This document shows positions 3,532 to 61,123 of a stretch of 64,000 nt of DNA, piece after piece. Made by a program: the position numbers and the translations under genes. Within the stretch, counting starts at the first letter, position 1; the number at the start of each line of letters is the position of its first letter. Under the pieces are notes generated by a model. The model did no database searches and was not told the origin of the DNA. It saw nothing but the letters and a program-made list of their open reading frames with translations. This DNA comes from Tridacna crocea (lineage: Eukaryota; Mollusca; Bivalvia; Cardiida; Cardiidae). The stretch lies in contig OX031069.1 in NCBI GenBank assembly GCA_943736015.1, positions 24,309,235-24,373,234 of the forward strand, given 5' to 3'.

Positions 3532-3699
3532 TTAACCCTTTATTCCATAGATGCTCGAGACAAGCAATTCCACCTTTTGTCACAATGTTTTCTATGCTAT
3601 CGAAAGGTGTCATATACAGGTAAGAAACGGCTTTATCCGTGTTGTTATTTAGGATCAATTAAAAATAGCATAGAAATGCCTTATGGGGTAAAGGGTTAA
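3532..3699 (-). repeat. TTAA-palindrome element, type 3, one arm deleted
   Basis: TTAA on both sides and type 3 ends (ATGCCTTATGGGGTAAAG on the right). The left palindrome arm and subterminal part are deleted, leaving a half hairpin. It shares its right TTAA with the next element. Confidence 0.85.
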
Positions 3700-3992: not shown

Positions 3993-3999
3993 ACTAACA

Positions 4000-9964: not shown

Positions 9965-9989
9965 GAGATATGTCCAGTAATTAAAGAGA

Positions 9990-16735: not shown

Positions 16736-16740
16736 TTTAC

Positions 16741-17445: not shown

Positions 17446-17674
17446 TTAACCCTTTACCCCATAAGGCATTTCTATGGTATCTCTAATTGACCCTAAATAA
17501 CAGCAAGCATGAAGCCATTTTTTATGCGTATATGACACCTTTTGATAGTGTAGAAAAAATTGTGGCAAAAGGTGAAATTGCTCGTCACAAGCAATTTCAC
17601 CTTTTGCCACAATGTTTTCCAAAGGCTCCTACAAGCTATGCGTAGAAATGAATATCTATGGAGTAAAGAGTTAA
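17446..17674 (+). repeat. TTAA-palindrome element, type 3, complete
   Basis: TTAA at both ends; starts CCCTTTACCCCATAAGGC; core arms GGCAAAAGGTGAAATTGCTC and their complement are long and almost perfect. Shares its right TTAA with the next element. Confidence 0.92.
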
Positions 17675-17897
17675 AAAATGACAAAATCTTACATGTATCC
17701 AAAACTGAAAGCATTTGCAGGCAGCAAATTATATGTGACTCAAAAATTGATATTTGTTTTGGGAATGATAGAAAATATGCATATAGTAGGAATAGGAGAA
17801 AAGGCGGATTATCAGCATTTTCTCCTCTTTCCTCTATGTTTTTAATAGCTTTCTTTTTTAGGGTCGTTAAAAGTCAAGATTGTGCGATAAAGAGTTA
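17671..17897 (+). repeat. TTAA-palindrome element, type 1, diverged
   Basis: A end left, B end right (GCGATAAAGAGTTA); the core has many mismatches (GGCGGATTATCAGC). Confidence 0.82.
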
Positions 17898-18528: not shown

Positions 18529-18529
18529 T

Positions 18530-21560: not shown

Positions 21561-22024
21561 GTCAGAACATGTCTAGCAGTTTCCAGTCTACAGTCGATCC
21601 AATAATGTATGTGCTTCTTTGAACCTACAAAAAAACCTTCAGATTTACCTACAAGAAAAAGAATGATGGAAAAGCATTCTTTCATCTACAAAAATTTTTT
21701 AAAACCCTGCCAACTAGGAGAAGGAGGGGACAAAAAGTTATACTTGTGAAGTAACTTGCCAATTTTTTATCATTATATATACATATTTTTTATTCTTTTG
21801 AAAGAAAGAGAGGATTGCTTTATCTAGTTAGTAAGATCAAAACAAATAATCTATCGAGTGAACACCTAAATTGATATTTTCATGAGTGATAAAGTCACAA
21901 ATGAATTCAAATTCATTATTAAACATCTTTGTTCTGAATCTAAACAGAGTTTTCCTCTTTCCAACATGCTAAAATCTAACAAAAATCATCTGCTCAAAAT
22001 TCCACTAAACTTTTTCCCACAAAT
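21561..22024. other. No recognisable feature
   Basis: AT-rich spacer; a short resemblance near 21855-21885 to the foldback at 4713 (ATCGAGTGAACACC) is the only structure. Confidence 0.4.
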
Positions 22025-22228
22025 CCAGTGTTTTAACAACCCTGAGAAAGAAAGTGTTAAAAACATTGTAGGAAAAGAAGAAAATGCTGGTAACCAGCAT
22101 TTTCTCCTTTTTCCTACAATGTTTTCTACTACTTTCTTTCCAAAATGTATGATTTCAGCCACTTTTAAATTATCACCTGCAAATGCTTTGAATCTGGATG
22201 GCTCCGTATTTTTGTAGTTGGGTAAAGA
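22025..22228 (-). repeat. TTAA-palindrome element, type 1, ends eroded
   Basis: Core arms carry a paired change: TTGTAGGAAAAG with CTTTTTCCTACAA in place of TTGTGGG/CCCACAA. Confidence 0.82.
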
Positions 22229-22260
22229 CTTTGTATTTCTATTGTGGGAAAAACTCCACA

Positions 22261-27397: not shown

Positions 27398-27484
27398 TTA
27401 AAAGGCAATGTAAATAGACAATTACAGCTCAATATGAGCAAAATTTAACCCTTTTCTACAGTATCACGCTTCTTGATTTTTTTT

Positions 27485-41600: not shown

Positions 41601-44600
41601 AATCGTGGCAGCCAGTGCACCTCTCCATGCGTTCCTGGAGTTTCTGTTACCAGTACTTCGAACAATATTCTTTCCAAGTCACTGGCTGCTTTCCAACATA
41701 ACCATCGCCAAAACAACAGTCAGCGGTGAGAGAGGAATGAATCTTGTCACAATGACTATCATCAATCCTCTGAAAGAAATTGGCCAAGCCAGGGATCAAA
41801 CTCACAACCCCGTTCTCTACCTGTACGCTACCAAGTGAGCTAACGGGACTCAGCACCTAAACTATAGGCAACAATTCATTTACAATAAGCTAAGAGTATA
41901 GCTTCAATCACGGCGGGGAATCATGTGACACAACAACAAAAAGAATGACCGACATTTTAAGAAATTCCCCCACTTCAGGTAAGAAAATCTTTAATAATTC
42001 CGTTAATATGTGACCGATTGGAATTTGGTTTGAAGCAGAGAAGGTGGAAGGACTCCGGGGATTTGCTTGATGTGCTAGATTTTTTAAACAACACCTGATA
42101 AAACAGTTATTGACGAGCAAACAAATTATCCAGGGTAAAAAGTTGTTTGCTCGTCAGTAACTTTTTACCAGATGACAAAATTTTAGACTGGTTCAAATTG
42201 AAAGCATTTGCAGACAACAAAATAAAGGTGACTGAAAACTTGAAATTTGTTCTGGGAAGGGTAGAAAACACTGTGGGAAAAGGAGAAAATGCTGGTTACC
42301 TGCATTTTCTCCCTTTCCTGCAGTGTTTTCAAAAGGCTTCTTTCTCAGGGGCGTCAAAAATAGGGATTGAGTGGTAATGGGTTGAAAGACAGGATTGTGA
42401 AGTATGGGTTAACTCTTCAGTAGAATACAAAATTATGACTTGCTCAAACAGCAACCATTTGGAAACAAATCAAATGTGGTTCAAATGATAAGGTTAGTCT
42501 GTGAAAAGACAGAAAATATGGAAAAAGAGGGAAATGCTGAAGATCACGTTCTCTATGGTATCCTTAGGCACAACATACATACCAACATTTCTGACTCTAT
42601 TTGGTTCCAGTAATGTAATGGTCTCAGGTTTCTTTCTCTTCAAAGTCTTCGGAGTAGAATCCCCTCCTTTCAGGCCCAGCACACCCAGCTTGAATGTTTC
42701 TTCAAACTCGTCGAAATTAATTTTCTGTGAACATTGATATAATCTTTTCACGTCCATGATGAGGCAAACATGTGTAAAGAATATTTTATTACAATTATAG
42801 AAAAAGATATCACGGTATTTCTTATTTATGCAACTGATGAAAAAATTCTTGACAACAGTGCTATCTTTGTATAACTATGGTGGTCAGTTGTAACTTTAAC
42901 ACTTTCAACAGAGTTTTCATTTTCTCAAGGCCATCAAAAGATTTCTAAAACTACTGTTATCATACAAAATAGCTTCAGAAAATAGACTTGAGTCATACAA
43001 GTGAAATATAGTAATGAAATAACACTTAGTCATAGAAGTGAAATGTAGAAATGAAATAACACTCGAGTCATAGAAGTGAAATGTAGTAATGAAATAACAC
43101 TCGAGTCATAGAAGTGAAATGTAGTAATGAAACAACACTCACGTCATAGAAGTGAAATGTAGTAATGAAACAATACTCGTGTCATACAAGTGAAATGTAG
43201 TAATGAAATGTACTAAACATACTGCATATAATTTTTCATCATCTAAGTCTGCAAAGATGGTTCCCTTGACTTGCTGGGGTTTCATTGGTGTCCAGTTTAA
43301 GACAGGTAACCTGTATTTTGTCTGTATCTTCTTCTTGATGGTCATAGCTAAAAATGATAAATGTAGTCCAGATTAAAGGGAGTATTCACAAGAGCATTCC
43401 ATCTCTAAAACCTCTAATTCTTTGATACAAAAACCTATCCGGTCACTAGCAAACCACTTCCATCTAGTAGTAAGTAGATGATCAACTTGTGTTGAAAGTC
43501 CACTAGCTTTGGCTTTTGATAGTAGCAATTGTTCCAGAGACCTTGATCAACTAAAGTCCATCTCAGGGATACCAATGGGGCATAAAACTTGCAACAATGC
43601 AACCGGCTTTCAATGGCATGTCAGAGGGGAAGTGTTATTTTTTTCATAATTGCAAGCATCTAATGACAAAAAATTTGAAAATAGGACAGACTTTACTGTT
43701 TTGATAGCATAGAAAACATTGTGGAAAATGGAAAAAATGATGGCTAAACCAATCATTCCGTGAACTTGGCTCTGTATTCACCAACAGTTCTTAACACCAT
43801 TCCCTGTCTTACTCTCAAGAATTTTCTAATAGATTCAAAAGTAACACAACTTCTGATTGGCTAAACCATTAAACCAAATGGTTTAGCCAGTAAGAAGTTA
43901 TGTGACTTTCAAATTTGGAAAATCCAGGGTAATAAGGCCACTAACGTTCTTAATAATGGTTGGAGAATACGGACCCTGATGTCTTATGTACCACATCATC
44001 GAAAAACAATTACCACAGAACATGATACAAGTATATATTTTTCATATCAGCTAGATAAAAAGATATGTGAAAACTTGTGCATATGACTGGTATATGGTTT
44101 GGTAGATTCAGCAGTAGGATACAGTGTATTATATATTATGATATATGCGGCAAAGGGGCTTTTAACACCACCGACACAAAAAATGAAGAAAACCAACCTG
44201 CAGCACTACTGGAAGAGCTGCCACCTGGAGGTGGGGGAGGAGGTGGTGGGGCTCCTATTCCTGGTCCTGGAGGAGGAGGTGGCGGAGGTGGTGGTGGAAC
44301 TGCAACTGGGGGTGGAGGAGGTGGTGGTGCTCCTGCAGAAGCTGCCCCAGATGGTCCTGCTGCTCCAATACCTACAATGCAATGAAAATTTGGTGAGAGA
44401 GAAAAAAATCTTTCAAACATCACAACAGAAATGCTTCAACTATTCAACAAGACTTAGTAATCTTCAATTTTAACAACCTTGGGGAAGTAGGCTTTTGAAA
44501 ACATTTTGCCAAAAGGAGAACATCCTGAATACCTGCATTTTCTTCATTTCTCATTTTTTTTTCTGCCCTTTTAAAAACCAAATTAAATATCAAATTACAT

Positions 44601-47600
44601 CCTTTTAGCTCAGTAAACTTTTTTGCCTACAAACACTTCCAAATTAGATGAGTCTGAAATTTTTGTTGGAGTTAACATCCCTGCCACAGGATTTGCAAGT
44701 TCTTCATTTCAGTAGAAGAAAAGCTTAGAGATTTATGCTATATCAGAAATGCCTCAAGTCTAATGTTTCTCAACTCTTTACCAAACAATCATGGGTTTCA
44801 ACAACTCTGTAGGAAAACTCTTTTGAAAACATTGTGGGAAGGGGAGAAAATGCTGTTAACCAGCATTTTCTCCTTTTCCCACAATATTTTCCACTCCATC
44901 AAAGATAAATCTCATCATTTTAAATTGTCATCTGCAAATGCTCAGTTTGGACAAGATTAAATTTTTGTCGTGTGGTAAAGAGTAAATGATTGTAGGGAAA
45001 CAGCTTAAAACTAGAGCTGACACTGAATGTGACTTAATACCCCCGCCTGCAATTATTTGTACGCGGATGGACACATTGACAGACAGGCTGATTCCAGTAT
45101 ACTATAGAAAACATTTGTAAAATAAGCCTTTTTTGATGACTAAAACCATTCTATCTCAACCAACTACAGAACAAGTCAAGGAATTTAGAATAAGAGCTAT
45201 AATGCACAAGTCAAGCTCTGCGAAAAGAGGGTTTGATGCATTCCCAAAAAAGTATCTACACAGGCAAGACTTTGCAGCTGGCAAAATATTTTGCTTTCTG
45301 TTAATTTTCTGCATGTCAAAGGACAACTCTACCTCAAGATTCACCTGGTTATTAAACAAGATGGATTTTATAGCTCAATAATTATATGATGACTGGCTTG
45401 GTAAAATGCATCCTAGCCCATTTTGCCAGAGCATGGCCTACCGTATATGCTCGACTATAAGACGCCTTCGCTTATAAGACGCTCCCCCAACTTTGTGATT
45501 CAAAATCAGGGATTTTGTTGATGACCTCCTATAAGACGCATGTAGACTTCACACGAACCATAACAGTCCTAAAATTGTGATTATTCAGCTGGATATATAC
45601 ACCAAGCAAATATATCGTCGGGTGTCAAAGTTGCATCACTCCAAAAATGAATAGCCTGTATCTTAGCCGATCATAAATTGATTCAACTCTTAATTTCTTT
45701 TAAATTTAAAATGGGAAAAAGAAAAGGGTGAAAAAAGTGTAAGGCATAGACCAAACCACTCACATTTTTTGTTAAAATAATCCTTTCGGGGAAATTAGGC
45801 CTTCGACGGTTTGCTCTAACTGTTAATTATCAATGGGTGCACAGACTATTTATCTCGCCGACAGGAGGAGTTAAATCAAAGAACTAAAGTATTCAAGTGT
45901 ATTACGCTTGAAGTAGGCTGTAATTTAAACTCTACCAAAAGAAAGGAATTTGGACCGGTCCAAATTCAAAGGATTTGAATATTATAAAAGTACCAGACTC
46001 AAAAACAGGATTTTGCTTCATCAGCATTTCCAATTTTCCAACACATTGTGTTGTATCAGTCTTTTTCTTCCTGGTTGTAAGTACCACGAATTATATGGTA
46101 AGCTATTAAATATCTTTATGGCCAGGATACTTTCTAGCCATAATTGATGAGTTATCACAAAAGAGACTGTAATGCTTGCTAATTCAAACCTAAATTATAT
46201 AATCGGCAAAACCTTAACGGTAACTTTAGGCTATGTTTAACTCTTCACCAAACAATCTGAAGTTTTCAGGGCTGTGAGAAAAAAAGCCTCCTGAAATCAA
46301 TGTGGAAAAAAGAGAAATGATGGTCGCCAGCATTTCCCCTTTTCCTACAATGTTTTCTACCCGCCAAGAGCAAGTTTTAATCTTTGAACCGCATTAACTT
46401 TTCTTTTTTTGTCTGCAAATCCTTCAGTTTGGACCAGTCCAAGTTTATGTCGTTCGGTAAAGAGTTAATCAAAGTGATGTAAACTGCACTAATTTATCGA
46501 TCGATGGCCTGGGTAGTGTAACCTATAAAATTTTGACATCTGGCTGTAAACTTCTAAAAATAGGCGTGTACTGTCTTGTAAATCACAGAGTCTGACTGCA
46601 GTCACAACCCTTTACCTCCTTACCTCCACGATCAACTAATAAATGCTTCATAATCTTTATTTAGATCTGAATTGCACCGTGGAAATTTTTTAACTCAGTT
46701 AGGTTACTTATTACATCATTCTGATTCTTCACAATGCCAAAACTTATCAATTAGAATGCATTTGATTTTGAAAAAAGTAATGATTCATCTTTGAATTTTA
46801 CAATCGTCGAAAGGGTCAATCAGTAGATCGTACTTTTATCTGTACTACACTGAACTAGTGGGCCATAAATGAACTGGCTGAAACTGACACAGTAAGAGGA
46901 ATAACTGCTCAGTCGAGTAATTTTTAATCTAAACTAACTAGTATTACGTGATAACTGTGTTTTAAACTTAAATTGCTTTACACAATGGGTGATAAAAACA
47001 ACTACATGTATTACTTAGTCACTTATAGCTTTAGATCAGCGTAACTCGTTTGTGAGATGTTTTTTTCCTTCGCGCTGATCAGCAGGTAAGTACGTTCTTC
47101 AGATGAAATTTTGCAAAGTCCTTTGATTATGCGCTTATAAGACGCTCCCCCAACTTCAAGCTCAAAATTCCAGGGAAAAAAATGCGTCTTATAGTCGAGC
47201 ATATACGGTATATAGAATGATAACAAAATATGCTTGATATCATATTTAGTCTTACTCTCAATAACTTTCTAAAATAGTATATAGCACAATTTCTGATTGA
47301 CGGAACCAAATGGTTTAGCTGATCAAAAATTGCTTTACTTTCTCCATTTAGAATATGACTAGGAATGTGCTATATATCCCTTTACAAGACGACAAAATCT
47401 TTAGCCGTGTCCAAAAAAGAAATTCTAAAGCATTTGCATACAACAATTTCAATGAGGCTCAAATGGTGCAAATTTTCTTTGATAGGGTAGAAAACATTGT
47501 GGGAAAAGGAGAAAATGCTGGTAACCAGCATTTTCTCCTTTTCCCGCAATGTTTTCTACCCTATCAAAAAGATTTCTTTCCCACAATTGTTAAAAGTCAA

Positions 47601-50600
47601 TATGTGTGGTATAGGGTTAATTTGATCTTAAATCTGTCCTCAGATCATCTTACCAGCATTCCCTATATTCTTTTTCAGGCTTTCCAACTCTTCCAGTTTG
47701 GCATCCAAGATAGACAGGTGTTTTTGGGACTCGGCATCTTTTTCTGATATTGCATCTCGTAATGAAGTCATTTCCGATTCCTGATGCAGTATTTGTTCCT
47801 AACAACAATATAACAACATCAGTTATTTTAATCACAAGTAGTAATACTACATGTCTGACAAAGATTTAGTAATGATTTCAATCATAGATGGAAGATTTTG
47901 GAAAGTATATAGATATCTATTACAGAGGATGTTACAAGAATGCTTACAATTTCAAGGGTTAAGCATAGGTTGCCACAAGTCCATTATTTTGTCATGTCAT
48001 TACTTTGTTTATATAAAACAACTATTTCTTTTCTCAGGAAAACAAATAAATTCATAATGCATGTTCTTAAGAACAAAGTCCACAACAAAGGAACAAATGA
48101 ACAAATGCATTGGTCTAACACAAATCACATCTTGAGGGATTCGAACCCATGCTGACAAATATCCTTGTTTTTCAAGGTTTAACCCATTACCAAACGACAA
48201 TATTTTAGACTGGTCCAAATTGAAAGCATTTGCAGACAACAAAATAAAAGTGATTGAAAATTTGAAATTTGTTTTGTGAAGGGTAGAAAACATTGTGGGA
48301 AAAGGAGAAAATGCTGGTAGAAAACATTGTGGGAAAAGGAGAAAATGCTGGTTACCAGCATTTTCTCCTTTTCCCACAATGTTTTCTAAAGGCTTCTTTC
48401 TCAGGGGCGTCAAAGGTAGGGATTGTGTGGTAATGGGTTAACTCTTTACCAAACGACAAAATTTTGGACTAGTCCAAATTGAAAGCATTTGCAGATGACA
48501 AAATAAATGTGTATCAAAATTTGAAATTTGATTTGGAAAGGGTAGAAACATTGTGGGAAAAGGAGAAAATGCTGGTTACCAGCATTTTCTCCTTTTCCTA
48601 CAATGTTTTCAAAAGCTTTCTTTCTCAGGGTCATTAAAAGTCGGGATTGTGTGGCAAAGAGTTACGAGACCAATACCATAACCACTGCACCAATCTCCCT
48701 GACGCAGTTAACAGGTATTGTATTTAAATCGGGACGAAGCCATGCATAAAGAGTGGTCTCCCGTAACAATGTATAACACTAAAATCATATAAAGTTATCT
48801 AGTAACATCTGAAAGCAACTTAGTCCTTACAGAGACTTTCACAACTTCAATTACTTTTGCAGCCAGTGCTAATCAAGGTCAGACTGCACATAATGTAGAC
48901 TCTAATCTTTGATGTGCTATGTCTGCCTTGCTGAAAAATTCTTAACAGAAGTAACATTAAAATTGCTCTATTTGGGTTTTATTTCTCGACTGAAAATGAC
49001 TGGTGGGTTGAGTCAGCGCTCTGAGGGTATTAACTCTTTACCAAACGACAAAATTATAGACCAGTCCAAATTGAAAGCATTTGCAGACGACAAAATGAAC
49101 GCGACTGAAAATTTGAAATTCCGGTTTAAGAAGGGTAGAAAACCTTGTGGGAAAAGGACAAAATGCTGGTTACCAGCATTTTCTCCTTTTCTCACAATGT
49201 TTTCAATGTTTTCGAAAGGCTTCTTTGTTAGAGTCATTAAAAGTCAGGATTGTGTGGCAAAGAGTTAAAGTTTTAGGTGCAATATTGTCCAGCTTTATAC
49301 AAGCTATGCAGAGAAGGAAATGCATGATAGAGGCTGCATGTGACTATCTACTGAACTCCACAAAAAAAAAAAAATGAAAACTGGCCAGTACTTTATCACA
49401 CTTAAATGAAACTTTGGCTATCTGTCATTAACCCAGTACCACAATCCCTACTTTTGATGACCCTGAGAAAGAAGCCTTTGGAAAACATTTTAGGAACAGG
49501 AGAAAATGCTGGTAATCACCATTTTCTCCTTTTACCACAATGTTTTCTACCCTTCACAAAACAATTTCAAATTTTCAGTTATCTGTCCTCTGCAAATGCT
49601 TTAGATTTGGACAAACCTAACATTTTGCCGTCTGGTAATGAGTTAAATGTTATGTATACCAATAAACAAAATATTGAAACAAACATCTATCATGTTTGCA
49701 TATAAATTGTCTATTCTACACTTCATGTTCAATTCAGTCTACATATTCAAGTCCTTGTATCCCAAGTAAAGTGTGAAAATCCAATGGATCTCCCACAGTA
49801 CAAATCTTTACACAATCCTCACCTTTAGGTCTTCAATTAAAGTGTTGGAATCTGACAGCTGTTTCTCTAACTCTACTGTCTTAGCCATAGCCTCTTCTTC
49901 CACTTCCTGCAGTCTTTCATTGGTCTAGAAGCACATGAAAAAAAGTTCAATTAGATATTAATTTAAAATCCCACAACAACCTGACAATGCTATTCTTTGT
50001 CTTTCTTTGTCTTCCTGCATAATTCTTTGAAAACCTTGCAACAAAACGAAAAATTGCTTGATACGAGAAATATCTTTTTACGTAATATTTTCATGTCAAT
50101 TTTCAAAACCTGACTTTTTTACTTATCTGTATTAGGAGTATTTGAATGCAATAAACTCATTGGGGCACAAGTGATGGAAAGGTCTTTAAAAGTAAAAACA
50201 AGGATTTTTCCTGACACTCCACTTGTGTGAATTTGAACCCCCAAATTTTCTAAATGACCCCCAAAATGTACCTTCTCTTATTCATTTCAAAAGGGTCAAA
50301 TGACCTCCAAAAAGGCGAGTGGATTGAAATAATTGGAACACTGTGGGAAAAGGAGAATACGCATTGAACCAGAATTTTCTACCTTTTTTTTCAATGATGA
50401 GCGGGAAAAAAGATAATTTTGTAAATGGCTAACCATCTCAATAAATTAGCTTTTCAATTTTTTTTGTTATATTAATTTTGTGTCAAAAGAGATTCAAACA
50501 ACAAAAAGTTGACTTTTTACCTGTGATAGTTCATCTTCTAGTTCAGCAGCTTTCTCGAGGGCTTCCGTCTTTGTTTCTGAATCTTCTAACAATGCTGCGA

Positions 50601-56600: not shown

Positions 56601-59600
56601 TATTCATTGTGCCTCATAACTCACAACGTGGTTTATTGAACGATATACCACGGTAGAAAGAAGATTATTTTGATTCTAACTTGGCCAATTCTTAATGAAA
56701 GGAAAACAAGTTCAAACTAAGAGTAAAAAAGCGGATGAAGATTATGTTCCATTGAATAACTCACTCATTGAATGACGTCACTCTACATGGATTGTCGCAG
56801 ATTTTACGTTTTCCTTGCACTGTGTCTATAGAGCCAAAGTCGCCTGTCATGTTAGAATATATAACAAATATGAATTAAGCCCCCCTTTTTGCCAGAGGAA
56901 AGATCATTAGTATATCAGCTAAAAATGAAAAAGAAAATCTTACCTCATACTTCTATGGTTTAGACTAAGGCCTATACAATTAATGGCATGGGTGTGAGCT
57001 ATAACTAGGTTAAAACCATACTGAAAAAGTACGAAAAAAAAAACATCTAAACTTTTTCAAATATTTCTCTTGGTATCTATCAAAATCTGGATAACAGCCT
57101 AAGCCAATCAGATGGTGTGTATTGTAATTCAGCATAGGAATAACATTTATCCAGGACTGTGAATACCAACTATAAAACTATCACTCCTTTTGGATAAAGC
57201 CTGTCTGAAACTGCAGATTAAAAGCCTCTGACACCGACAAAGGAAAGTCTCTATTAGGCTGTTTTCATTAACACTAGCTGTTCCTTTAACTCTTGATCAA
57301 ACAACAAATCTATAGACTGGTCCAAATTGAAAGCATTGCAGACAACAAAATATATGTGACTGAAAAAAATCAAAATTTGATTTGGGATGGTTAGAAAACA
57401 TTGTTGGAAAAGGAGAAAATGCTGGTTTCCGGCATTTTCTCCTTTTCCCACAATGTTTTCAAAAGGCTTCTACCTCAGGGTGGTCTAATGTCATCATTGT
57501 GTGGTAAAGAGTTGAAAAGCTTTGTATACTGTAACTTGTTCATTTTGACTAACATTTTGCAATAAATCATTTGATTTATGTGTTGTTTGCTTGCTCAAGT
57601 GGGTGGCATCATTCTGTGCTGAAGAGGGCTCTGTTAAGAAATTGAAGGTATTTTTCTTACTTGTAACTGTAAATCTACAGTGTCATATTTTCTTGCCCAA
57701 TACCAAATATTACAACATAATGGTAAAACTTTGTAAAACTCCTAGGTGCAATATGTTTCCACTCAATTGTATGATTGGGTAACCATCATTTTCTTCTTTT
57801 CCAACCATGTTTTCTAACCTTTCAAAGAATAAAATCCAATCATTTGATGCCCACTTTCATTGATGTCTGCAAACAGTTCTACAGCAGGCAAGTCTTATAT
57901 TCTGTTTTTTGGTAAAGGTTTAAACATGCAAGAGATACTTTAAGTGTACTTGCATCAGACAGGTTTGCTAAGAATAGACACATTCAAATATATATCTGAG
58001 ACAAGCTCTTGCAAAAGGGGGCTTAACTCTTTACCACGCAATCCCGACTTTTAACGACCCTGAGAAAGAGGCCTTTAGAAATCATTGTGGTAAAAGGAGA
58101 AAATGCTGGTATCCAGCATTTTCTCCTTTACCACAGTTTTTTCTACCCTTCGCAAAACAAATTTCCATTATTTAGTCACTTTTGTTTTATAGTCTGCAAA
58201 TGCTTTAAATTTCAACCAATGTAAAGCAGAGCATGATACTATTTAAGTCATCATAGTATTAAGGATCCATAGAATTCAATTTTTTTCTAACAATGTACCA
58301 AATAATAAACTTGCAGACAACTGACCGACAGAAAAACTTTCCACTGAGGTCAGTCTGTGCTGGCTGAACAGTCTGACTTGAGTCAATACTTTCTGCAGAT
58401 GTATTAAACCCCCTTTTCACAGAGCATGGCTGACATGTATATTCCTCATTAGATCCTCAACACAATTTGGCCTGCAACAAAAGGGGCATTCAAACGTTTG
58501 TGTGAAGTGTAGTCTCGGATCAGCCTGTGCAGTTCATGCAGGTTTATCCGAAATGACACATTTCGCTTTTATGTAATTTTCTGTTTTGCACAAGTCTACT
58601 GAAGATTAAAATCCAATGTAGTGGTACAGTGCCATCTCAAATTAGCCTGCGCAGACTGCGCAGGCTGATCCAGTCCGCAACGGCTGATCCCAGATGACAC
58701 TTTAAGCAAATGTCTGAGTGCCCCTTTTTGCATGTTGCAATCCATATTATGCTTGCTGTAAGAGGAGGTAACTCAAGATAGGCTTTACTGTAGATAGGCT
58801 TTACTGCACTGCACCTTTCTACTGGAAAACCATTGCAAAGTTTCCGTTCCTACCTGATGATTCATAATTGCACGTAAACACATGATACAGACATGGACAT
58901 CATCCCGGGCCTCGCCCATGTTAAGTTTCTGGGTGTAGCGTGAAATGCCTCTCGAAGAACTAATGGTATTGGAACGTTTTAAGGATCGGAAGGAGCCCCG
59001 AGCTAACCCTGTGTCCAGACTTGAACTCTTCTCTCTGTTTAGCAGCTGTTCTCGTCTAAAAAAAATACATGTAGTACAGTATGTGCTTCTGATAAAAAGC
59101 AGATGTCTAAAGCTTAATTTCTTTGCTTTTGCAGACATTGGAGAGCAAGGTAAGACTGAATTGGACATGCAATCTTAACTTCCTTCTAAACTGTCCTCTC
59201 TGACAAAATTCTGACAAAATAAGCTTCAAACTTTACAACACAATCCGACTGTTAACAACCCTGAGAATAAAGCGCTTTGAAAACATTGTGGGAAACCAAA
59301 CCAGCATTTTCTCCTCTTCCAACAATGTTTTCTAACCTTCCCAAATCAAATTTCCATTTTTGATTCACATTTAAATAAAATGCTGTCTGCAAATGCTTTC
59401 AATTTGGACTAATCCAAAATTTTGTCATCTGGTAAAGAGTTAAAGTTGCAATGTGTTATATAAGTATCCATACATTCCGTAACAGCCACTGGCTGATTTT
59501 CTATCAAAGTCAAAGTAAAAACAGTATTTAACAGTAAGAGCAAAATGAATTGTTTCATATAGGCCACCAATTAACATTGGCTGAGATAAGGATATAAATT

Positions 59601-61123
59601 TGAACTTCTGTATTATTAGCCTTTTACTATACCACTAAGCTACCAGGACTTCTGCAATGATTAGAGAAAATGAGTCTTTTTTCATGCAAAAATACAGCCG
59701 CTGTCCATTCTCACAGGGCATGGTTCATCTTTATTCTCCAATAACTGTAAACATCATTAAAATTCTAAATTTCATGACTAGCCATCAGATTGGTTCCACC
59801 AATTATATGGCTGGTATTGAAATTAACAAATGTACCAAATGCAAGTGCCAATGCCAATGCCAGTGACTGTTGCTTTAATTTCAATGAAATTTTAACTCTT
59901 TACCACACGACAAAATTTTAGACTGGTTCAAATTTAAAGCATTTGCAAACAACAAAATAAAGGTGACTGAAAAATTGAAATTTGTTCTAGGAAGGGTAGA
60001 AAACACTGTGGGAAAAGGAGAAAATGCTGGTTACCAGCATTTTCTCCTTTTCCCACAGTGTTTTCCAAAGGCTTCTTTCTCAGGGGTGTCAAAAGTAGGG
60101 ATTGTGTGGTAATTGGTTAACCAATTATATGGCTGGTATTGGAATCAACAAATGGCTACATGTAACTGCCAATGCTTGGTAACTGTTGCTTTATTTACAA
60201 TGAAATTTTTAAGATGGCAAAGGGGCATAGCTGTGCCAAAAATACTTCATTGGTTACCGGTCCTTATGAAGATTCCCCCTTTTGATGGTCCAAGTTTGAA
60301 GGAAATATCGTCAGTCATAACAGAGACTTTATAAAATGTCAAAGTTTTTCAAGATAAAAAACAATGACACAGATGGTTACACCAGTACCAGGTCAATACC
60401 TGGTCATTTTCCTTGAAAACTTCAGAGCTAACAATTAGAACTGAAATAAAAATGGTAGGGGACCATGGTCCCCATTTTGTCCAGGTACTTACCTCATGAC
60501 CACTTGGGTGAAGGAGAGATAGTCCACTAACACGTCCAAGCCTTGATTTTCTTCACTGAGAAATTCTCTAACCCATCTGTGAATGAATGAAGAAATAATT
60601 TGTCGTAATAAATTGATGTATACAATGATGAATAAACAGTGTATACTCCACACAAAAAGTCAACCAGCAAAATCATTTATTATTCTTATTATCCTATGAA
60701 ATATCTGATAAGTTAACCTTAAATGTGAAGAAAAAAAGATGGCTTTTCAAAGCAATGCTGGAAAAAGAGAAAATGCTGGTAACCAGATGCATGTAAGCAG
60801 CATTTTCTCCTTTTCCGGCAATGTTTTCTAGAGGTTTCTTTCTCAGGGTCGTCGAAAGTAGGGACTGTGTAGTAATAGATTAATATTATCAACCTACAGG
60901 AAGAAACTAGAGCACTGAATCTGACTTTAAAATGGGGATTTGTACCAGCAATCCCCCGTCTTCAAGTCTTGTACACCTGTACAAAAAATTTAGTCAAAGA
61001 TACAAAGATACCATGAAAGGAAGCAGCTTTCTAATTTACTTACTCTATGTGATTTGTTCGTAAAGAAATCTCCAAGTCTCGCAAAACTTGTGTAGAACTT
61101 GCATCACCAAGCATTTTTCTTTT
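29592..61123 (-). CDS. FMNL: Formin-like protein (FMNL/FRL family), 25 exons, 5' partial
   Basis: Formins of this family nucleate and elongate unbranched actin filaments under Rho-family GTPase control at the cell cortex, filopodia and lamellipodia. The 25 exons listed separately add up to 2730 nt, one open frame of 909 residues plus stop, with GT donors, AG acceptors and matching phases throughout. Visible residues 1-245 are the GTPase-binding/FH3 (armadillo-like) region with [17 protein letters not shown] and [17 protein letters not shown]. Residues 246-375 are charged coiled coil. Residues 375-433 hold FH1 with three proline runs. Residues 434 to about 830 are FH2, with the lasso LPVLNW and the signature [21 protein letters not shown]. 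The C terminus has a DAD ([19 protein letters not shown]) and a basic tail. FMNL rather than DIAPH or DAAM is indicated by the FH3 and lasso sequences. The start codon and roughly the first 100-180 residues lie beyond the window. The introns are packed with TTAA-palindrome elements, none of which touches an exon. Confidence 0.96.
29733..29904 (-). repeat. TTAA-palindrome element, left arm deleted
   Basis: Lies in the last FMNL intron. Left TTAA and A end right; the B subterminal part and left arm are missing. Confidence 0.82.
30246..30680. repeat. Dispersed repeat R4 with a tandem duplication of about 170 bp
   Basis: Begins CACTGAATGTGACTTAAT; contains two copies (about 30310-30480 and 30481-30655) of GAGATAATTCCTCAACCAG, ATATATGATCAGTATGTGTG and ACGGACACAC-type runs; ends CAGGCTGATTCTAGTGTAC. 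A shortened relative with the same ends lies at 45008-45118. Confidence 0.75.
30731..30836 (-). CDS. FMNL: FMNL exon 24 (start of DAD)
   Basis: Encodes [20 protein letters not shown], then [15 protein letters not shown], the acidic first half of the diaphanous autoregulatory domain. Donor GTAAAT, phase 1 out. Read-through into the intron would give about 20 other residues and a stop. Confidence 0.94.
30864..31091 (+). repeat. TTAA-palindrome element, type 1, core flipped
   Basis: A end left, but the centre reads GGTAACC instead of the GGTTACC usual for this orientation. Confidence 0.88.
31151..31390 (+). repeat. TTAA-palindrome element, chimeric left end
   Basis: The left terminus is B type (CACACAATCCCTACTTTTGA) and then switches to A-type subterminal sequence (TCCAAATTGAAAGC). 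The right end is B type. Confidence 0.82.
31424..31528 (-). CDS. FMNL: FMNL exon 23 (post-FH2 helix)
   Basis: Encodes [20 protein letters not shown] and [15 protein letters not shown], a long charged helix linking FH2 to the DAD. It aligns only loosely with vertebrate FMNLs. Phase 0; donor GTGAAA is weaker than average. Confidence 0.92.
31765..31987 (+). repeat. TTAA-palindrome element, degenerate
   Basis: Weak ends; core AATGCTTGTTACCAGC. Confidence 0.6.
32029..32130 (-). CDS. FMNL: FMNL exon 22 (end of FH2)
   Basis: Encodes [20 protein letters not shown] and [14 protein letters not shown], matching the conserved VxYFGESP...FFxxFVRF end of FH2. Thirty-four codons, phase 0, donor GTAAGT. 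Confidence 0.96.
32411..32639 (+). repeat. TTAA-palindrome element, type 1
   Basis: Ends ATAACCCACTACC and GTGATAAAAGGTAA; core centre GGTGACC. Confidence 0.85.
32706..32881 (-). CDS. FMNL: FMNL exon 21 (FH2)
   Basis: Encodes [20 protein letters not shown], then [39 protein letters not shown]. ELxRGMEL is typical of FMNL. 176 nt, phase 1 in, phase 0 out, donor GTATAC. Confidence 0.95.
33062..33309 (-). repeat. TTAA-palindrome element, type 1 with altered right half
   Basis: Paired change in the arms: TTTGTAGGAAAAGG with CCTTTTCCTACAA. The right half carries extra sequence and a type 2-like A end. Confidence 0.8.
33388..33500 (+). repeat. Possible tRNA-derived SINE head
   Basis: TAGCCCGGCTCCGAGA..GGATTTGTAATC..CAGGCTTGATTCTC has the spacing of A-box and B-box promoter elements. 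Weak; no tail seen. Confidence 0.35.
33557..33785 (+). repeat. TTAA-palindrome element, type 1
   Basis: TTAA both ends; right arm damaged (TTCTCTTCTACCAATAATG). Confidence 0.9.
33865..34093 (+). repeat. TTAA-palindrome element, type 3, complete
   Basis: TTAA both ends; perfect inner palindrome TTGCTCGTCACGAGCAA; about 229 bp and closely similar to 17446-17674. Confidence 0.93.
34209..34338 (-). CDS. FMNL: FMNL exon 20 (FH2 post)
   Basis: Encodes [20 protein letters not shown], then [20 protein letters not shown] and AAL. This matches the formin LLDTKSTDRKMTLLHF consensus. Phase 1 out, donor GTATGT. Confidence 0.96.
34749..34949. mobile_element. Palindromic MITE M2, copy 1
   Basis: Ends GGGTTCGTATTCACCAAC and its approximate complement. 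The centre is a perfect palindrome of about 36 bp, GATTGGCTAAACC..GGTTTAGCCAATC. Related copies at 43768-43978 and 47245-47355. Confidence 0.82.
35100..35180 (-). CDS. FMNL: FMNL exon 19 (FH2 post, GNYMN signature)
   Basis: Encodes [20 protein letters not shown] and KLQSLDM. GNYMN is the most conserved FH2 signature and forms part of the post that receives the lasso. Twenty-seven codons, phase 0, donor GTAATT. Confidence 0.97.
35340..35415. repeat. TTAA-palindrome core remnant
   Basis: Degenerate hairpin (AAACATTGTGGAAAAGGG..TTACAATGTTTAC) without ends. Confidence 0.5.
35521..35826 (+). repeat. TTAA-palindrome element with duplicated right half
   Basis: After a normal core and B subterminal part, the right arm and B part are repeated (about 35737-35806), starting again at CTGGTTACCAGC. 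Right TTAA present. Confidence 0.87.
36294..36362 (-). CDS. FMNL: FMNL exon 18 (FH2)
   Basis: Encodes [20 protein letters not shown] and LLE, 23 codons, phase 0. Acceptor TTTGCAG, donor GTAAGA. Confidence 0.95.
36436..36662 (-). repeat. TTAA-palindrome element, type 1b, complete
   Basis: CCCTTTCCCAAAC ends with TTAA; GGTAACC core as expected for this orientation. Confidence 0.92.
36740..36966 (+). repeat. TTAA-palindrome element, type 1
   Basis: Left flank TTTAG, right GGGTTTAA; core around GGTTACC. Confidence 0.9.
36995..37075. repeat. Remnant of the GATCAGACTGCAC hairpin repeat
   Basis: GGACAATGTAGATCAGGATC..GTCTGATCTCTGATCTGACA, a degraded relative of 14930-15165. Confidence 0.55.
37590..37999 (-). 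mobile_element. SINE fragment split by a TTAA-palindrome element
   Basis: The parts 37590-37683 and 37913-37999 align in order with the SINE body at 41600-41790 (ACCAGT.TT..., then GAGAAAGGTATGAATCCTTC). The inserted element occupies 37684-37912 with TTAA on both sides. Confidence 0.75.
37684..37912 (-). repeat. TTAA-palindrome element, type 1, inserted in a SINE
   Basis: TTAA both ends, B end left, core centre GGTAACC. Confidence 0.92.
38030..38184 (+). repeat. TTAA-palindrome element, 5'-truncated
   Basis: Core and B end with TTAA remain. A reversed A-end fragment follows at 38185-38272. Confidence 0.8.
38322..38408 (-). CDS. FMNL: FMNL exon 17 (FH2)
   Basis: Encodes [20 protein letters not shown] and HDDIHHLQP, equivalent to the vertebrate KVERLTQRMAGMAFLGNF helix. 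Twenty-nine codons, phase 0, donor GTAAGT. A 26-bp AT-rich minisatellite fills part of the upstream intron. Confidence 0.95.
38817..39543. repeat. AT-rich minisatellite, unit about 26 bp
   Basis: About 28 irregular copies of TATGAAATATCTGT followed by CCAACTACTG or GCAAATGATG variants; lies in the intron between FMNL exons 16 and 17. Confidence 0.9.
39690..39767 (-). CDS. FMNL: FMNL exon 16 (FH2)
   Basis: Encodes [20 protein letters not shown] and DKFMWQ, the FH2 coiled-coil helix with the family Y-E-R pattern. Twenty-six codons, phase 0, donor GTAAGG. Confidence 0.95.
39791..40010 (-). repeat. TTAA-palindrome element, degenerate
   Basis: Left TTAA with CTCTTTCTGC, right A end (TTGTTGTTTAGTAAAC); core almost unrecognisable. 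Confidence 0.7.
40010..40240 (+). repeat. TTAA-palindrome element, type 1, diverged
   Basis: Core reads AAATGTTGGTTACCAACATT: both arms changed together from GCTGG/CCAGC. Ends lack TTAA. Confidence 0.8.
40591..40660 (-). CDS. FMNL: FMNL exon 15 (FH2)
   Basis: Encodes [20 protein letters not shown] followed by NDAE, matching the FH2 helix ending LPTEAE in vertebrate FMNLs. Seventy nt, phase 2 in, phase 0 out, donor GTAAGT. Confidence 0.94.
40811..40915 (+). repeat. TTAA-palindrome A-end fragment
   Basis: A end only, cut by a dispersed R3-type repeat (40910-41060). Confidence 0.65.
41130..41304 (+). repeat. TTAA-palindrome element, 5'-truncated
   Basis: Partial A part, complete core and B end with TTAA. 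With 40811-40915 it may be one copy split by the R3 insertion. Confidence 0.8.
41407..41464 (-). CDS. FMNL: FMNL exon 14 (FH2 knob)
   Basis: Short 58-nt exon encoding [19 protein letters not shown]. The first residue is the Ile-containing AIT element of the actin-contacting knob region. Phase 1 in, phase 2 out; donor GTAAGT. Confidence 0.93.
41545..41852 (-). mobile_element. tRNA-derived SINE
   Basis: Reading the minus strand from about 41850: an A-box-like TAGCTCACTTGGTAG (41828-41842), then a B-box-like GGTTGTGAGTTTGATCCC (41792-41809), then a body of about 200 bp. Near 41555-41580 it ends with CATTTAACACCGTACAATC, a conserved tail segment. Copies at 55613 and 56283 share the body. Confidence 0.8.
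42158..42384 (+). repeat. TTAA-palindrome element, type 1
   Basis: Arms read AAACACTGTGGG and CTGCAGTGTTTTC, a partly paired change. Just upstream an inverted repeat (TTGACGAGCAAACAA / TTGTTTGCTCGTCA, 42110-42155) has disturbed the left terminus. Confidence 0.85.
42408..42545 (+). repeat. TTAA-palindrome element, 3'-truncated
   Basis: Left TTAA and diverged A end; ends within the core about 35 bp from FMNL exon 13. Confidence 0.65.
42583..42724 (-). CDS. FMNL: FMNL exon 13 (FH2 lasso/linker)
   Basis: Encodes [20 protein letters not shown], a linker, and [12 protein letters not shown], the FH2 segment before the knob. Acceptor TTCACAG, donor GTATGT, phase 1 out. A truncated palindrome element lies just past the donor (42408-42545). 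Confidence 0.95.
42989..43210. repeat. 38-bp intronic minisatellite, about 6 copies
   Basis: The unit contains GTCATAGAAGTGAAATGTAG and TAATGAAATAACACTC. It ends about 12 bp from the FMNL exon 12 donor site, so copy-number change could affect splicing. Confidence 0.92.
43223..43347 (-). CDS. FMNL: FMNL exon 12 (start of FH2, lasso)
   Basis: Encodes [18 protein letters not shown], then [20 protein letters not shown]. The LPVLNW Trp is the lasso residue that docks the partner FH2 subunit. Donor GTATGT, phase 0 out. A 38-bp minisatellite begins about 12 bp past the donor. Confidence 0.96.
43768..43978. mobile_element. Palindromic MITE M2, copy 2
   Basis: Ends GGCTCTGTATTCACCAAC and GAATACGGACCCTG; centre GGCTAAACCATTAAACC and complement. 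Confidence 0.82.
44198..44371 (-). CDS. FMNL: FMNL exon 11 (FH1, polyproline)
   Basis: The 58-residue FH1 segment has proline runs of 7, 10 and 8 separated by Val/Ala/Gly and followed by a Ser-rich end. FH1 recruits profilin-actin and feeds it to FH2. The whole FH1 sits in one exon. The donor reads CAG then GTTGGT, weaker than its neighbours, but it restores the exact phase (1) needed by the FH2 exon. Confidence 0.92.
44463..44676 (-). repeat. TTAA-palindrome element, degenerate
   Basis: B end left, eroded core (GCCAAAAGGAGAACATCC), A end right. Confidence 0.65.
44771..44988 (-). repeat. TTAA-palindrome element, type 1
   Basis: Core AATGCTGTTAACCAGC, TTAA ends mutated (TCAA, GTAAA). Confidence 0.85.
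45008..45118. repeat. Dispersed repeat R4, internally deleted copy
   Basis: Starts CTGACACTGAATGTGACTTA and ends CAGGCTGATTCCAGTATAC, the two ends of 30246-30680 with the duplicated middle missing. Confidence 0.7.
45230..45440. repeat. Dispersed repeat R3 copy
   Basis: Shares TTAATTTTCTGCATGTCAAA, ATAATTATATGATGACTGG and GCCAGAGCATGG with the other R3 copies. Confidence 0.6.
45921..46065 (+). repeat. TTAA-palindrome element remnant
   Basis: A end (GGACCGGTCCAAATTCAAAG) with a broken core. Confidence 0.6.
46237..46468 (-). repeat. TTAA-palindrome element, type 1
   Basis: TTAA both ends; core GATGGTCGCCAGC; nested in the 45441-47208 transposon. Confidence 0.9.
47245..47355. repeat. Palindromic MITE M2, partial copy 3
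   Basis: CTTACTCTCAATAACTTTCT and GATTGACGGAACCAAATGG..GCTGATCAAAAATTG match the middle of M2; ends missing. Confidence 0.6.
47377..47620 (+). repeat. TTAA-palindrome element, type 1, extended palindrome
   Basis: A end left but centre GGTAACC. Pairing extends outward to TTTGATAGGGTAG/CTACCCTATCAAA, so arms are about 46 bp, the longest intact hairpin seen in the family. Confidence 0.9.
47654..47798 (-). CDS. FMNL: FMNL exon 10 (coiled coil to FH1 linker)
   Basis: Encodes a further charged helical segment ([17 protein letters not shown]) and leaves in phase 1, matching the FH1 exon. Donor GTAAGA, acceptor TTAG. Confidence 0.9.
48179..48441 (+). repeat. TTAA-palindrome element with duplicated left arm
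   Basis: The left arm segment GGTAGAAAACATTGTGGG..AATGCT occurs twice in tandem (unit about 35 bp, 48282-48351). TTAA both ends, right one shared with the next copy. Confidence 0.92.
48438..48664 (+). repeat. TTAA-palindrome element, type 1
   Basis: Abuts the previous copy with one shared TTAA; right end GGCAAAGAGTTA; perfect core centre. Confidence 0.92.
49030..49268 (+). repeat. TTAA-palindrome element, type 1
   Basis: TTAA both ends; a short duplication of CAATGTTTTC follows the right arm. Confidence 0.92.
49428..49646 (-). repeat. TTAA-palindrome element, type 1
   Basis: TTAA both ends, B end left; core mismatched (GGTAATCACC). Confidence 0.88.
49823..49924 (-). CDS. FMNL: FMNL exon 9 (coiled coil)
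   Basis: Encodes 34 residues of heptad-like, Glu-rich sequence ([20 protein letters not shown]). Donor GTGAGG, phase 0 on both sides. The sequence is less conserved; assignment rests on frame, splice sites and position. Confidence 0.9.
50336..50400. repeat. TTAA-palindrome core remnant
   Basis: CACTGTGGGAAAAGGAGAAT followed by a degraded right arm; ends absent. Confidence 0.55.
50521..50670 (-). CDS. FMNL: FMNL exon 8 (end of FH3, start of coiled coil)
   Basis: Encodes [19 protein letters not shown] followed by a Glu/Lys/Leu-rich helix ending ELEDELSQ, which begins the dimerisation/coiled-coil region. Fifty codons, phase 0. The acceptor CAG sits next to a run of T on the coding strand (plus-strand A run, 50676-50689). 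Confidence 0.94.
50693..50911 (+). repeat. TTAA-palindrome element, diverged
   Basis: TTAA left; core GCTGGTTATGAGC; right end GTATGGTAAATGGTAA. It lies 22 bp from the FMNL exon 8 acceptor. Confidence 0.82.
51060..51356 (-). repeat. TTAA-palindrome element with triplicated A subterminal block
   Basis: After the core, a block of about 66 bp (CAAATCAAGTTTCAA..CTGCAAACGCTTTG..TTTGGACTGGTC) occurs three times in tandem (about 51118-51330) before the terminal GGTAAAGAGTTAA. Confidence 0.9.
51489..51692 (+). repeat. TTAA-palindrome element, left arm deleted
   Basis: A end followed by ACATTGTGGTTACCAGC: the left arm was removed between GTGG and GGTTACC. Confidence 0.85.
51953..52200. repeat. Dispersed repeat R2, copy 2
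   Basis: Same ordered blocks as 1560-1795; a more decayed tandem copy may follow to about 52395 (AAAAAGAATCTGACAGTCAA). Confidence 0.7.
52399..52602 (-). repeat. TTAA-palindrome element, right end eroded
   Basis: B end left, core GCTGGATACCAGC; lacks terminal TTAA on both sides. Confidence 0.82.
52638..52748 (-). CDS. FMNL: FMNL exon 7 (FH3)
   Basis: Encodes [20 protein letters not shown] and [17 protein letters not shown], the end of the FH3 core. Phase 0 on both sides; donor GTAAGG. A palindrome element (52399-52602) ends only about 35 bp past the donor. Confidence 0.96.
52795..53005. repeat. Dispersed repeat R3 copy
   Basis: Shares GGTATCAACCCAGG, TTTTTTGCTTTTGGTCAG and CCATAATTATGTGATGG with other R3 copies. 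Confidence 0.6.
53006..53217 (+). repeat. TTAA-palindrome element, core centre deleted
   Basis: TTAA both ends; GGGAAAAGGA joins directly to CCAGCATTTT. Confidence 0.88.
53448..53530. repeat. TTAA-palindrome remnant
   Basis: B-like end (TTTACCAAACAATTTTGAG) and ATGGCTTTTGAA; no core. Confidence 0.45.
53674..53751 (-). CDS. FMNL: FMNL exon 6 (FH3)
   Basis: Encodes [20 protein letters not shown] and FHIDFM, 26 codons, phase 0 on both sides. Acceptor TTTTGTAG, donor GTAAGA. Confidence 0.95.
54255..54348 (-). CDS. FMNL: FMNL exon 5 (FH3)
   Basis: Encodes [20 protein letters not shown] and then [11 protein letters not shown], nearly identical to vertebrate FMNL proteins. Acceptor CACAG, donor GTAGGT, leaving in phase 0. 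Confidence 0.96.
54371..54520. repeat. TTAA-palindrome remnant
   Basis: Right arm (AAAGCATTTTCTCCTTTTCA) and part of a B end. Confidence 0.55.
54522..54754 (+). repeat. TTAA-palindrome element, type 1
   Basis: Left TTTA, right TTAA; core with one mismatch (AACGAG). Confidence 0.9.
54800..54985 (-). repeat. SINE remnant
   Basis: TTGGCCAAGCCAGGAATCAA and upstream body match the tRNA-related half of the SINE at 41545-41852. Confidence 0.6.
54997..55222 (+). repeat. TTAA-palindrome element, type 1
   Basis: TTAA both ends; outer arms shortened (AACAATGAAGAGAAAATGC). Confidence 0.9.
55235..55395 (-). repeat. SINE remnant
   Basis: CAGCTAGTGCACAAATCCAT..CCTAGAGTTTCT matches the body of the SINE at 41545-41852. 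Confidence 0.6.
55429..55507. repeat. TTAA-palindrome core remnant
   Basis: CACTGTGGCTAAAGGAGCCA..AACAAATGTTTTC, decayed. Confidence 0.45.
55613..55884 (-). mobile_element. tRNA-derived SINE
   Basis: Minus strand starts with CCCGGGTGGCTCAGTGGTGT (A box) and GGTTGTGAGTTCGATACC (B box). The body ends with AGTGGCGTTAAACCCCAATA near 55630-55650. Better preserved promoter boxes than the copy at 41545. Confidence 0.85.
55988..56152 (-). repeat. TTAA-palindrome element, A end truncated
   Basis: Left TTAA, perfect core around GGTAACC; cut at 56152 by an R3-type repeat. Confidence 0.85.
56155..56285. repeat. Dispersed repeat R3 copy
   Basis: CACAGGCTGACCTGGGCTGA, TTTTCGCTATTGGTCAATTT and GACAAAGGACCAGTC match other copies. 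Confidence 0.6.
56283..56487 (-). mobile_element. SINE, head truncated
   Basis: Body matches 55613-55830 closely (GCCACTTTAACAGCTAAGGT); the tRNA head is missing at ACCAGGGTGTGATG. Confidence 0.8.
56516..56670. repeat. Foldback palindrome, arms about 72 bp
   Basis: Left AAATAATCTTCTTTCTATCG and right end its complement; the middle CACGAGTG is the loop. Arms differ at a few positions. Confidence 0.88.
56944..57020 (-). CDS. FMNL: FMNL exon 4 (FH3)
   Basis: Encodes [20 protein letters not shown] and NHRSM, an armadillo-type helix of FH3. Acceptor TTTTTCAG, donor GTAAGA, leaving in phase 2. Confidence 0.95.
57286..57514 (+). repeat. TTAA-palindrome element, type 1
   Basis: Left TTAA, right GAGTTGA; core centre GGTTTCCGGC. 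Confidence 0.88.
57776..57922 (-). repeat. TTAA-palindrome element, left half missing
   Basis: Starts inside the core (GGTAACCATC) and ends with an eroded A end. Confidence 0.7.
58023..58228 (-). repeat. TTAA-palindrome element, type 1, A end truncated
   Basis: Paired change in the arms: TGTGGTAAAAGG with CCTTTACCACA. Left TTAA present. Confidence 0.85.
58425..58735. repeat. Dispersed repeat R3, two adjoining copies
   Basis: Contains CAGCCTGTGCAGTTCATGCA and TAGCCTGCGCAGACTGCGCA with flanking GATGACACATTTCGCTTTTA and GATGACACTTTAAGC, the best preserved R3 in the window. Confidence 0.75.
58854..59055 (-). CDS. FMNL: FMNL exon 3 (GBD linker and start of FH3)
   Basis: At 202 nt this is the longest exon. 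It starts with a Ser/Arg-rich linker ([20 protein letters not shown]), a likely phosphorylation-type segment by composition only, and ends with [17 protein letters not shown], the diagnostic FMNL FH3 sequence. Donor GTAGGA, leaving in phase 0. Confidence 0.95.
59228..59443 (-). repeat. TTAA-palindrome element, core centre deleted
   Basis: B end left, A end right with TTAA; CATTGTGGGAAACC joins to AAACCAGC. Confidence 0.85.
59800..59893 (+). repeat. Direct repeat flanking a palindrome element, left copy
   Basis: CCAATTATATGGCTGGTATT..CTGTTGCTTTAATTTCAATG recurs at 60118-60212, one copy on each side of the element at 59892-60120. Confidence 0.85.
59892..60120 (+). repeat. TTAA-palindrome element, type 1, complete
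   Basis: TTAA both ends. Paired change in the arms: AACACTGTGGG with CCCACAGTGTT. Confidence 0.93.
60118..60212 (+). repeat. Direct repeat flanking a palindrome element, right copy
   Basis: Second copy of the repeat at 59800-59893 (CCAATTATATGGCTGGTATT..AACTGTTGCTTTATTTACAA). Confidence 0.85.
60493..60576 (-). CDS. FMNL: FMNL exon 2 (GBD)
   Basis: Encodes [20 protein letters not shown] and SFTQVVMR, the most conserved stretch of the FMNL GTPase-binding region. Acceptor ACAG, donor GTAAGT. It completes the Glu codon of exon 1 and leaves in phase 2. Confidence 0.95.
60713..60883 (+). repeat. TTAA-palindrome element with an insert at the hairpin centre
   Basis: Arms are normal but the centre reads GGTAACCAGATGCATGTAAG (loop of about 13 nt); A end mostly deleted; TTAA both ends. 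Confidence 0.85.
61044..61123 (-). CDS. FMNL: FMNL exon 1 of the visible part (GBD)
   Basis: Encodes visible residues 1-27, including [18 protein letters not shown]. The acceptor reads TTTCAG and the donor GTAAGT. The exon enters in phase 0 and leaves after 2 nt of a Glu codon. The previous exon, expected to encode a YIQKLR-type segment, is not found between 61124 and 64000. Confidence 0.93.

Follow-up and report, generated by a model that had tools for sequence, protein, structure and literature searches.

Why do hairpins of one repeated family in the window (the whole 64,000-nucleotide stretch of Tridacna crocea DNA analyzed here) carry substitutions that match one another across both arms? 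The sequence-only reading of this DNA had proposed that paired substitutions preserve the hairpin in independent copies, either because pairing is selected or because one arm is copied onto the other. Our analyses partly confirmed this observation: the paired arm changes are real, and the description of their carriers as independent copies was mostly wrong.

The repeated element in the window was identified as a 229-bp, TTAA-flanked, piggyBac-like MITE with a hairpin at its centre, the hairpin being a 67-nt palindrome of two 33-nt arms and one central base. The terminal repeats of the MITE are imperfect (TTAACTCTTTACC... on the left, ...GGTAAAGGGTTAA on the right). The consensus right end is TTAACCCT, and the left end is TTAACTCT in the overall consensus and TTAACCCT in four of the eight clusters described below, with the CC[C/T]T terminal-repeat motif taken as defined in the accessible text of PMC2872659. 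TTAA was found at both ends in 104 of the 154 end-complete copies, at one end in 41 and at neither in 9. The element is smaller than 500 bp and non-coding, as TTAA MITEs are, based on the 229-position model and the lengths of the window ORFs (nine of at least 120 aa, the longest 178 aa). The structure of the element fits the piggyBac/TTAA MITEs as they are described in the accessible text of PMC2872659. The window spans positions 24309235-24373234 of its contig; its G+C content is 35%, and ARAGORN found no tRNA in it. Chance palindromes were ruled out by a count of 61 palindromes in the window, some of which belong to other repeats, against 0 and 0 in two mononucleotide shuffles. The similarity of the hairpin arm to the terminal repeat reached a shuffle p of only 0.036. 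Twelve couples of end-complete copies abut one another (loci L031, L020, L029, L023, L026, L018, L011 and L032), and most of these couples share or overlap in TTAA, as if the end of one copy had been the target of the next.

The 229-position profile identified 105 non-overlapping loci in the window, 58 of them near full length, which together covered 19.4 kb; a later model identified 100. The genome comprises 1.05 Gb in 31 contigs, and a blind sample of 20 stretches of 10 kb, taken at round-number positions on 17 contigs, contained 233 MITE copies occupying 43.5 of 200 kb (21.8%), with no stretch empty. Extrapolation from this blind sample gives approximately 1.2 million MITE copies genome-wide, and the exact 31-nt palindrome core occurs 191,599 times. 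The density is patchy, with no copies 10-20 kb before the window and 23 in the 10 kb just after it (L012 and L010, respectively). The exact core was absent from collections of viral and genome contigs, and the copy at 59893-60120 had no match in plasmids, phages or E. coli genomes, searches in which the species' own or a very near genome may be omitted.

The copies on which the argument draws are as follows, those cited by the sequence-only reading being marked as examples.

59892..60121, forward strand: near-consensus MITE copy, example 59892; hairpin 59999-60065, pair 7 changed T:A>C:G on both arms, otherwise perfect
42157..42386, forward strand: MITE copy of the same pair-7 sub-lineage as 59892; hairpin 42264-42330, with further one-arm changes
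22261..22489, reverse strand: near-consensus MITE copy with a perfect hairpin, 22314-22384
3696..3993, forward strand: diverged MITE copy, example 3696; hairpin 3866-3930, double at pair 9 (G:C>T:A)
22005..22233, reverse strand: MITE copy, example 22025; hairpin core 22073-22111, double at pair 11 (G:C>A:T)
33037..33174, reverse strand: partial MITE copy, example 33062; hairpin 33096-33166, double at pair 11 (G:C>A:T)
27187..27398, forward strand: MITE copy, example 27198; hairpin 27280-27344, doubles at pairs 17 and 29 (29 being T:A>C:G)
40009..40240, forward strand: MITE copy, example 40010; hairpin 40119-40181, doubles at pairs 9 and 28 (28 being C:G>T:A)
58022..58243, reverse strand: MITE copy, example 58023; hairpin core 58093-58129, arms unequal, double dependent on gap placement
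47374..47621, forward strand: MITE copy with a palindrome, 47478-47568, lengthened by its left flank repeated in inverted orientation
3057..3288, forward strand: MITE copy of the TTGCTCG/CGAGCAA hairpin group; hairpin core 3179-3217
17447..17675, forward strand: MITE copy of the TTGCTCG group; hairpin 17553-17619, doubles at pairs 13, 20 and 25
26511..26741, reverse strand: MITE copy of the TTGCTCG group; hairpin 26567-26633, doubles at pairs 7, 25 and 30
33866..34094, forward strand: MITE copy of the TTGCTCG group; hairpin 33972-34038, doubles at pairs 13, 20, 25 and 30
63799..64000, forward strand: TTGCTCG-group MITE copy truncated where the window ends; hairpin 63905-63971, with doubles at pairs 7, 25 and 30

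Six of the seven cited copies showed a Watson-Crick double when aligned to the family. The exception was 58023, which had six single changes and no double in the alignment used; its arms differ in length, so a double there hangs on gap placement. The positions by which these copies had been named lie near the element starts, with the hairpins further in.

Other repeats occur in and around these copies. A second, different palindromic repeat (TTTACTTCAAAAACCTCGTA...) lies inside copy 3696 at 3743-3830 and was also found at L008 1508-1592 and elsewhere. It sits in or beside MITE copies, and a genome search returned 2,878 first-look candidates, of which 40 were scored. A near-perfect palindrome of approximately 149 nt at 4702-4850 belongs to another repeat family, also present in L014, L019 and L026. 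At 48282-48352, a 34-nt stretch containing most of the hairpin left arm is exactly duplicated in tandem. The window also contains a tandem array of approximately 71 copies of a 40-bp unit (7126-9965) and a minisatellite of approximately 27 copies of a 26-bp unit (38805-39508; longer-period readings 52 and 78).

Paired changes were counted in 89 window hairpins with 2,537 gap-free paired cells, a further 400 cells being lost to gaps. These cells contained 338 single changes, which the sequence-only reading had left out, together with 48 complementary doubles and 25 other doubles. A null that keeps the load of each copy and the rate and spectrum of each column gave 18.7±3.8 complementary doubles, so the claim that both arms change together more often than expected stood when doubles and singles were scored in this way. 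Without the eight copies of the TTGCTCG subfamily, there were 28 complementary doubles in the window against a null of 15.3±3.5.

To which level of relatedness these doubles belong was apparent from 220 copies clustered on flank columns alone, so that the hairpin could not shape the groups. The consensus of every one of the eight flank clusters had a perfect 33/33 palindrome. Flank distances between clusters ranged from 0.07 to 0.52, the hairpins differed at 0-4 of the 33 pairs, and in all 28 cluster comparisons every differing pair was changed on both arms. There were five such pairs (7 T:A>C:G, 13 G:C>C:G, 20 A:T>T:A, 25 A:T>T:A and 30 G:C>C:G), with 25 and 30, and 13 and 20, travelling together. 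Before the finer clustering and the within-cluster, divergence, end, extension, tree and core-count analyses, 12 rows that nearly duplicated others were removed. When 282 copies were clustered more finely, 11 of 14 clusters had a 33/33 palindrome; the other three (10, 11 and 12) had 32/33, with flank divergence of at least 28% and weak support.

Copies compared with the consensus of their own cluster gave a different picture. In clusters 1-8, which we call resolved (9-14 being old, labels assigned after the divergence was seen), and with pair 7 set aside, there were 559 singles, 23 complementary doubles (null 14.3±3.4, p 0.013) and 26 other doubles (null 17.5). Both kinds of double were approximately 1.3-1.6 times the null, and because other doubles were also enriched, the excess in resolved clusters is not specific to pairing. 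The founding changes were doubles in 5/5 cases, as against 23/608 changed pairs in copies (Fisher 1.4e-7, a post hoc value that treats linked pairs as independent). In the flank tree, the branches leading to at least five copies carried 30 changes (9 complementary doubles, 20 singles and 1 other double) and the tips 1,224 (45, 1,122 and 57, respectively); several of the deep singles look like forward-and-back artefacts of a poorly resolved backbone and were kept in the counts. Symmetry is maintained among lineages; in settled copies pairing is not.

Within cluster 1 the 59892 double identifies a sub-lineage: flank allele 97 T>G was present in 12/12 carriers and 3/31 non-carriers; five cluster-1 copies had the pair-7 change on one arm only. 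As this type shares flank markers, and as the TTGCTCG/CGAGCAA doubles are subfamily markers, the strongest cases could not be upheld as independent copies.

Mean divergence was lower in the hairpin than in the flanks in all seven clusters tested (e.g., 0.043 against 0.096 in cluster 1 and 0.056 against 0.087 in cluster 7), as would be expected of a module on which amplification depends; the same pattern could also come from exchange between copies, from the hairpin being easier to align, or from detection bias. The divergence of the terminal repeats lay between those of hairpin and flanks in four of the seven clusters and below that of the hairpin in three.

One MITE copy has been multiplied together with its surroundings in arrays with periods of approximately 1.6 kb (L022) and 1.7 kb (L025) on two contigs. 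In the consensus of its 12 rows, 8 of the 33 pairs no longer match: the right arm is altered in seven of them and the left arm in the eighth. Only L025 shows the left-arm change and one of the right-arm changes. An apparent subfamily with right-arm single changes proved to be these tandem arrays. Multiplication without transposition of its own appears to have kept the mismatches, which would make this copy a natural control.

Based on the contrast between lineages and settled copies, we consider it probable that the hairpin is a constrained cis-acting module whose symmetry is kept by selection in the amplifying lineages of a piggyBac-like MITE. A dimeric protein, such as a piggyBac-type transposase, or a cruciform would probably read the symmetrical site, elements with a broken dyad would amplify poorly, and selection in active lineages would thereby filter for symmetry. 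A symmetrical allele may enter in one step, via template switching between the arms. The whole lineage would then inherit the double, after which settled copies would decay mostly on one arm. As all copies of a lineage inherit the founding double, a reader of the sequence sees many paired substitutions.

The genome has 118 piggyBac transposase matches, many of them open over the whole domain without stops, and mobile piggyBac partners may, judged by these reading frames, still be active. At two of six piggyBac loci inspected we identified matching ends (TTAACCCATTTATGCC and TTAACCCTTTATATAC), which begin TTAACCC[A/T]TT and are similar to, and not identical with, those of the MITE. An autonomous partner with the MITE's own ends was not found among these six loci.

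Several observations count against the selection reading. Three of the 14 finer clusters are 32/33, 20 singles lie on branches to at least five copies, and the terminal repeats are more conserved than the hairpin in three of seven clusters. In addition, private doubles are in excess in the old clusters, and the independent pair-28 doubles described below are above the estimated chance number.

These last observations bear on arm-to-arm copying, by template switching or cruciform repair, as the sole cause, without selection and in all copies or only on mobilisation. The old clusters had 58 complementary doubles against a null of 35.4±5.3 and 53 other doubles against 51.6, and as the other doubles were at the null, the complementary excess there is specific to pairing. 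A nearest-neighbour test of these private doubles found 1/58 shared, with 2.3 expected, and has little power at such divergence. Genome-wide, the 40010-type double at pair 28 (C:G>T:A) was present in 114 exact cores, against 4,461 one-arm cores and 191,599 intact ones. Independence predicts 26 such doubles, a value above which coincident changes are inflated because copies differ in age. As an unpaired control, the change at pair 28 in one arm combined with that at pair 31 in the opposite arm occurred 208 times genome-wide and gave an expectation of 53 (29-92), so that 114 is 2.1 times (1.2-4.0) the estimated chance number. For this calculation the pair-31 single count was itself estimated, from sampled singles in the proportion 37 to 19. 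A second expectation, from changes per core, was 46 (22-97). Mirrored changes made up 5 of 28 two-change cores.

We fetched 20 of the 114 pair-28 carriers. The double was visible in 19 (L056 had aligned to a neighbour), and 18 had comparable flanks, with nearest clusters 3 (seven carriers), 8 (six), 1 (three), 2 (one) and 12 (one). None of the 153 carrier pairs was closer than 0.10, as against 3.1% of pairs among 62 reference copies. As the carriers are spread over clusters and none are close, the pair-28 doubles are not one lineage, and for the 40010 type the description as independent copies was borne out in the carriers fetched.

The copy at 47374-47621 had a palindrome extension score of 14, the best of 3,000 mismatched flank pairs scoring 10. 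We interpret this extension as a footprint of arm copying, which on this reading does happen and leaves few traces of the sort. The mechanism itself is known from rDNA and yeast: in the accessible text of PMC8794818, a single template-switching event can create or restore changes that match across both arms, and the same applies to the quasi-palindrome mutations of yeast in the accessible text of PMC3820800. Four of the five founding doubles are transversions and so have no passage through G.U, which makes one-step copying attractive, although five is a small number.

As the sole cause, however, arm-to-arm copying seems unlikely. The pair-28 excess amounts to approximately 1.4% (0.5-1.9%) of one-arm changes, too small for 33/33 perfection unless copying is tied to mobilisation, and extension above the chance range was found in only 1 of 254 hairpins. 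Under copying alone the arms should also drift like the flanks, yet they differ at no more than four pairs across the whole range of flank distances. Copying between the arms, rare as it is in settled copies, may still be how new symmetrical alleles arise. A version in which symmetry is renewed at mobilisation, when the palindrome would fold on excision or gap repair and one arm would template the other, with settled copies then diverging, appears to us rather doubtful; if true, arm copying would be a transposition-coupled proofreading of a transposase site.

We regard it as similarly doubtful that shared ancestry and chance, as subfamily markers plus coincidences at mutation hot spots, account for everything. 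Counts over the 246 oriented copies of the window and samples, which like the column-linkage test and the flank-allele association still include the near-identical tandem-array rows, were 1,054 singles, 141 complementary doubles (null 51.4±6.4) and 70 other doubles (null 67.5). The five pair types that distinguish the clusters made up 70 of the 141 and act as lineage markers, as ancestry would predict; they were associated with flank alleles, and only in them was the double commoner than either single. With the five marker pairs removed, there were 54 complementary doubles against 35.0±5.2 and 49 other doubles against 46.9. The linkage of unpaired regions points the same way: it is present too, and the strongest co-change of all was between unpaired flank columns, arising from subfamily structure. 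Some terminal-repeat positions also co-change (columns 6 and 220, z 9.5). In the resolved clusters, as noted above, complementary doubles were hardly more enriched than other doubles.

The hairpin pairs as a set nevertheless had a mean z of 1.59, whereas shifting the pairing by 1-5 columns gave values between -0.19 and 0.46. Ancestry and chance also give no account of founding changes that are always two-armed, of the independence and excess of the pair-28 doubles, or of the excess in the old clusters. Allowing for shared ancestry removed about half of the signal, and the last two excesses are what was left of it. Types 2 and 3 of the sequence-only reading came without a definition. In six other hairpin families picked from the sampled DNA, complementary doubles were always above the mean of a permutation null that ignores relatedness. 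The excess was clear in two, which may overlap (T4, 34 against 13.6±2.8; T5, 36 against 20.5±3.7), and weak in the remaining four, with 3-10 doubles each.

Selection on an RNA hairpin transcribed from the MITE is highly improbable, for although MITE-derived microRNA hairpins reportedly exist and singles leaving G.U outnumbered those leaving A.C on the element strand (180 against 142, p 0.039), this asymmetry is weak, the flanks show strand-biased substitution too, the four transversions among the founding doubles cannot pass through G.U, and Rfam had no match at gathering score anywhere in the window.

The selection reading, with rare arm copying as a possible source of new alleles, can be compared with known systems. 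The CMITEs of Acropora are likewise small TTAA-flanked piggyBac-like elements with tandem arrays of copies, and their internal region is more conserved between families than their ends, as the hairpin is relative to the flanks here; the authors suggested that the conserved internal region helps transposition (PMC2872659, accessible text). CMITEs are approximately 100 bp, as against 229 bp for the present MITE, which is also far more numerous. Neither "palindrome" nor "hairpin" is used in that paper, and no paired-change analysis was noticed there. According to the accessible text of PMC11707139, the transposase dimer uses two C-terminal domains to bind palindromes close to the ends of piggyBac and piggyBat. 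These systems share with ours a TTAA element with a palindromic motif, but the piggyBac palindrome is 19 bp, that of piggyBat is imperfect and both are near the ends, whereas the MITE has a single, central, 67-nt putative site. The 3' stem-loop of DINE-1 in Drosophila is another case in which a non-autonomous element has a stem that stays paired although its sequence has changed, there ascribed to compensatory mutations; its stem is 7-11 nt, the element is Helitron-like and the comparison was between species, not between lineages within one genome (PMC2374699, accessible text). Unlike template-switch hairpins, the hairpins studied here look to have had few such events in settled copies, and their symmetry is tied to amplified lineages. 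In the literature searched, mostly outside subscription journals, we came across no description of this palindrome, nor of paired change at the level of lineages in a piggyBac-like MITE.

Together, these data partly support the interpretation in the sequence-only reading, provided that amplified lineages take the place of its independent copies; a small independent component is left over. In RNA genes, where independent replicates are few, it is difficult to separate one-step copying from step-wise compensation. Here, about a million copies (by extrapolation) of one palindrome, in amplified lineages and decaying copies, make single, matched and mismatched changes directly countable, and the difference between these two groups suggests that an element must be symmetrical in order to amplify.
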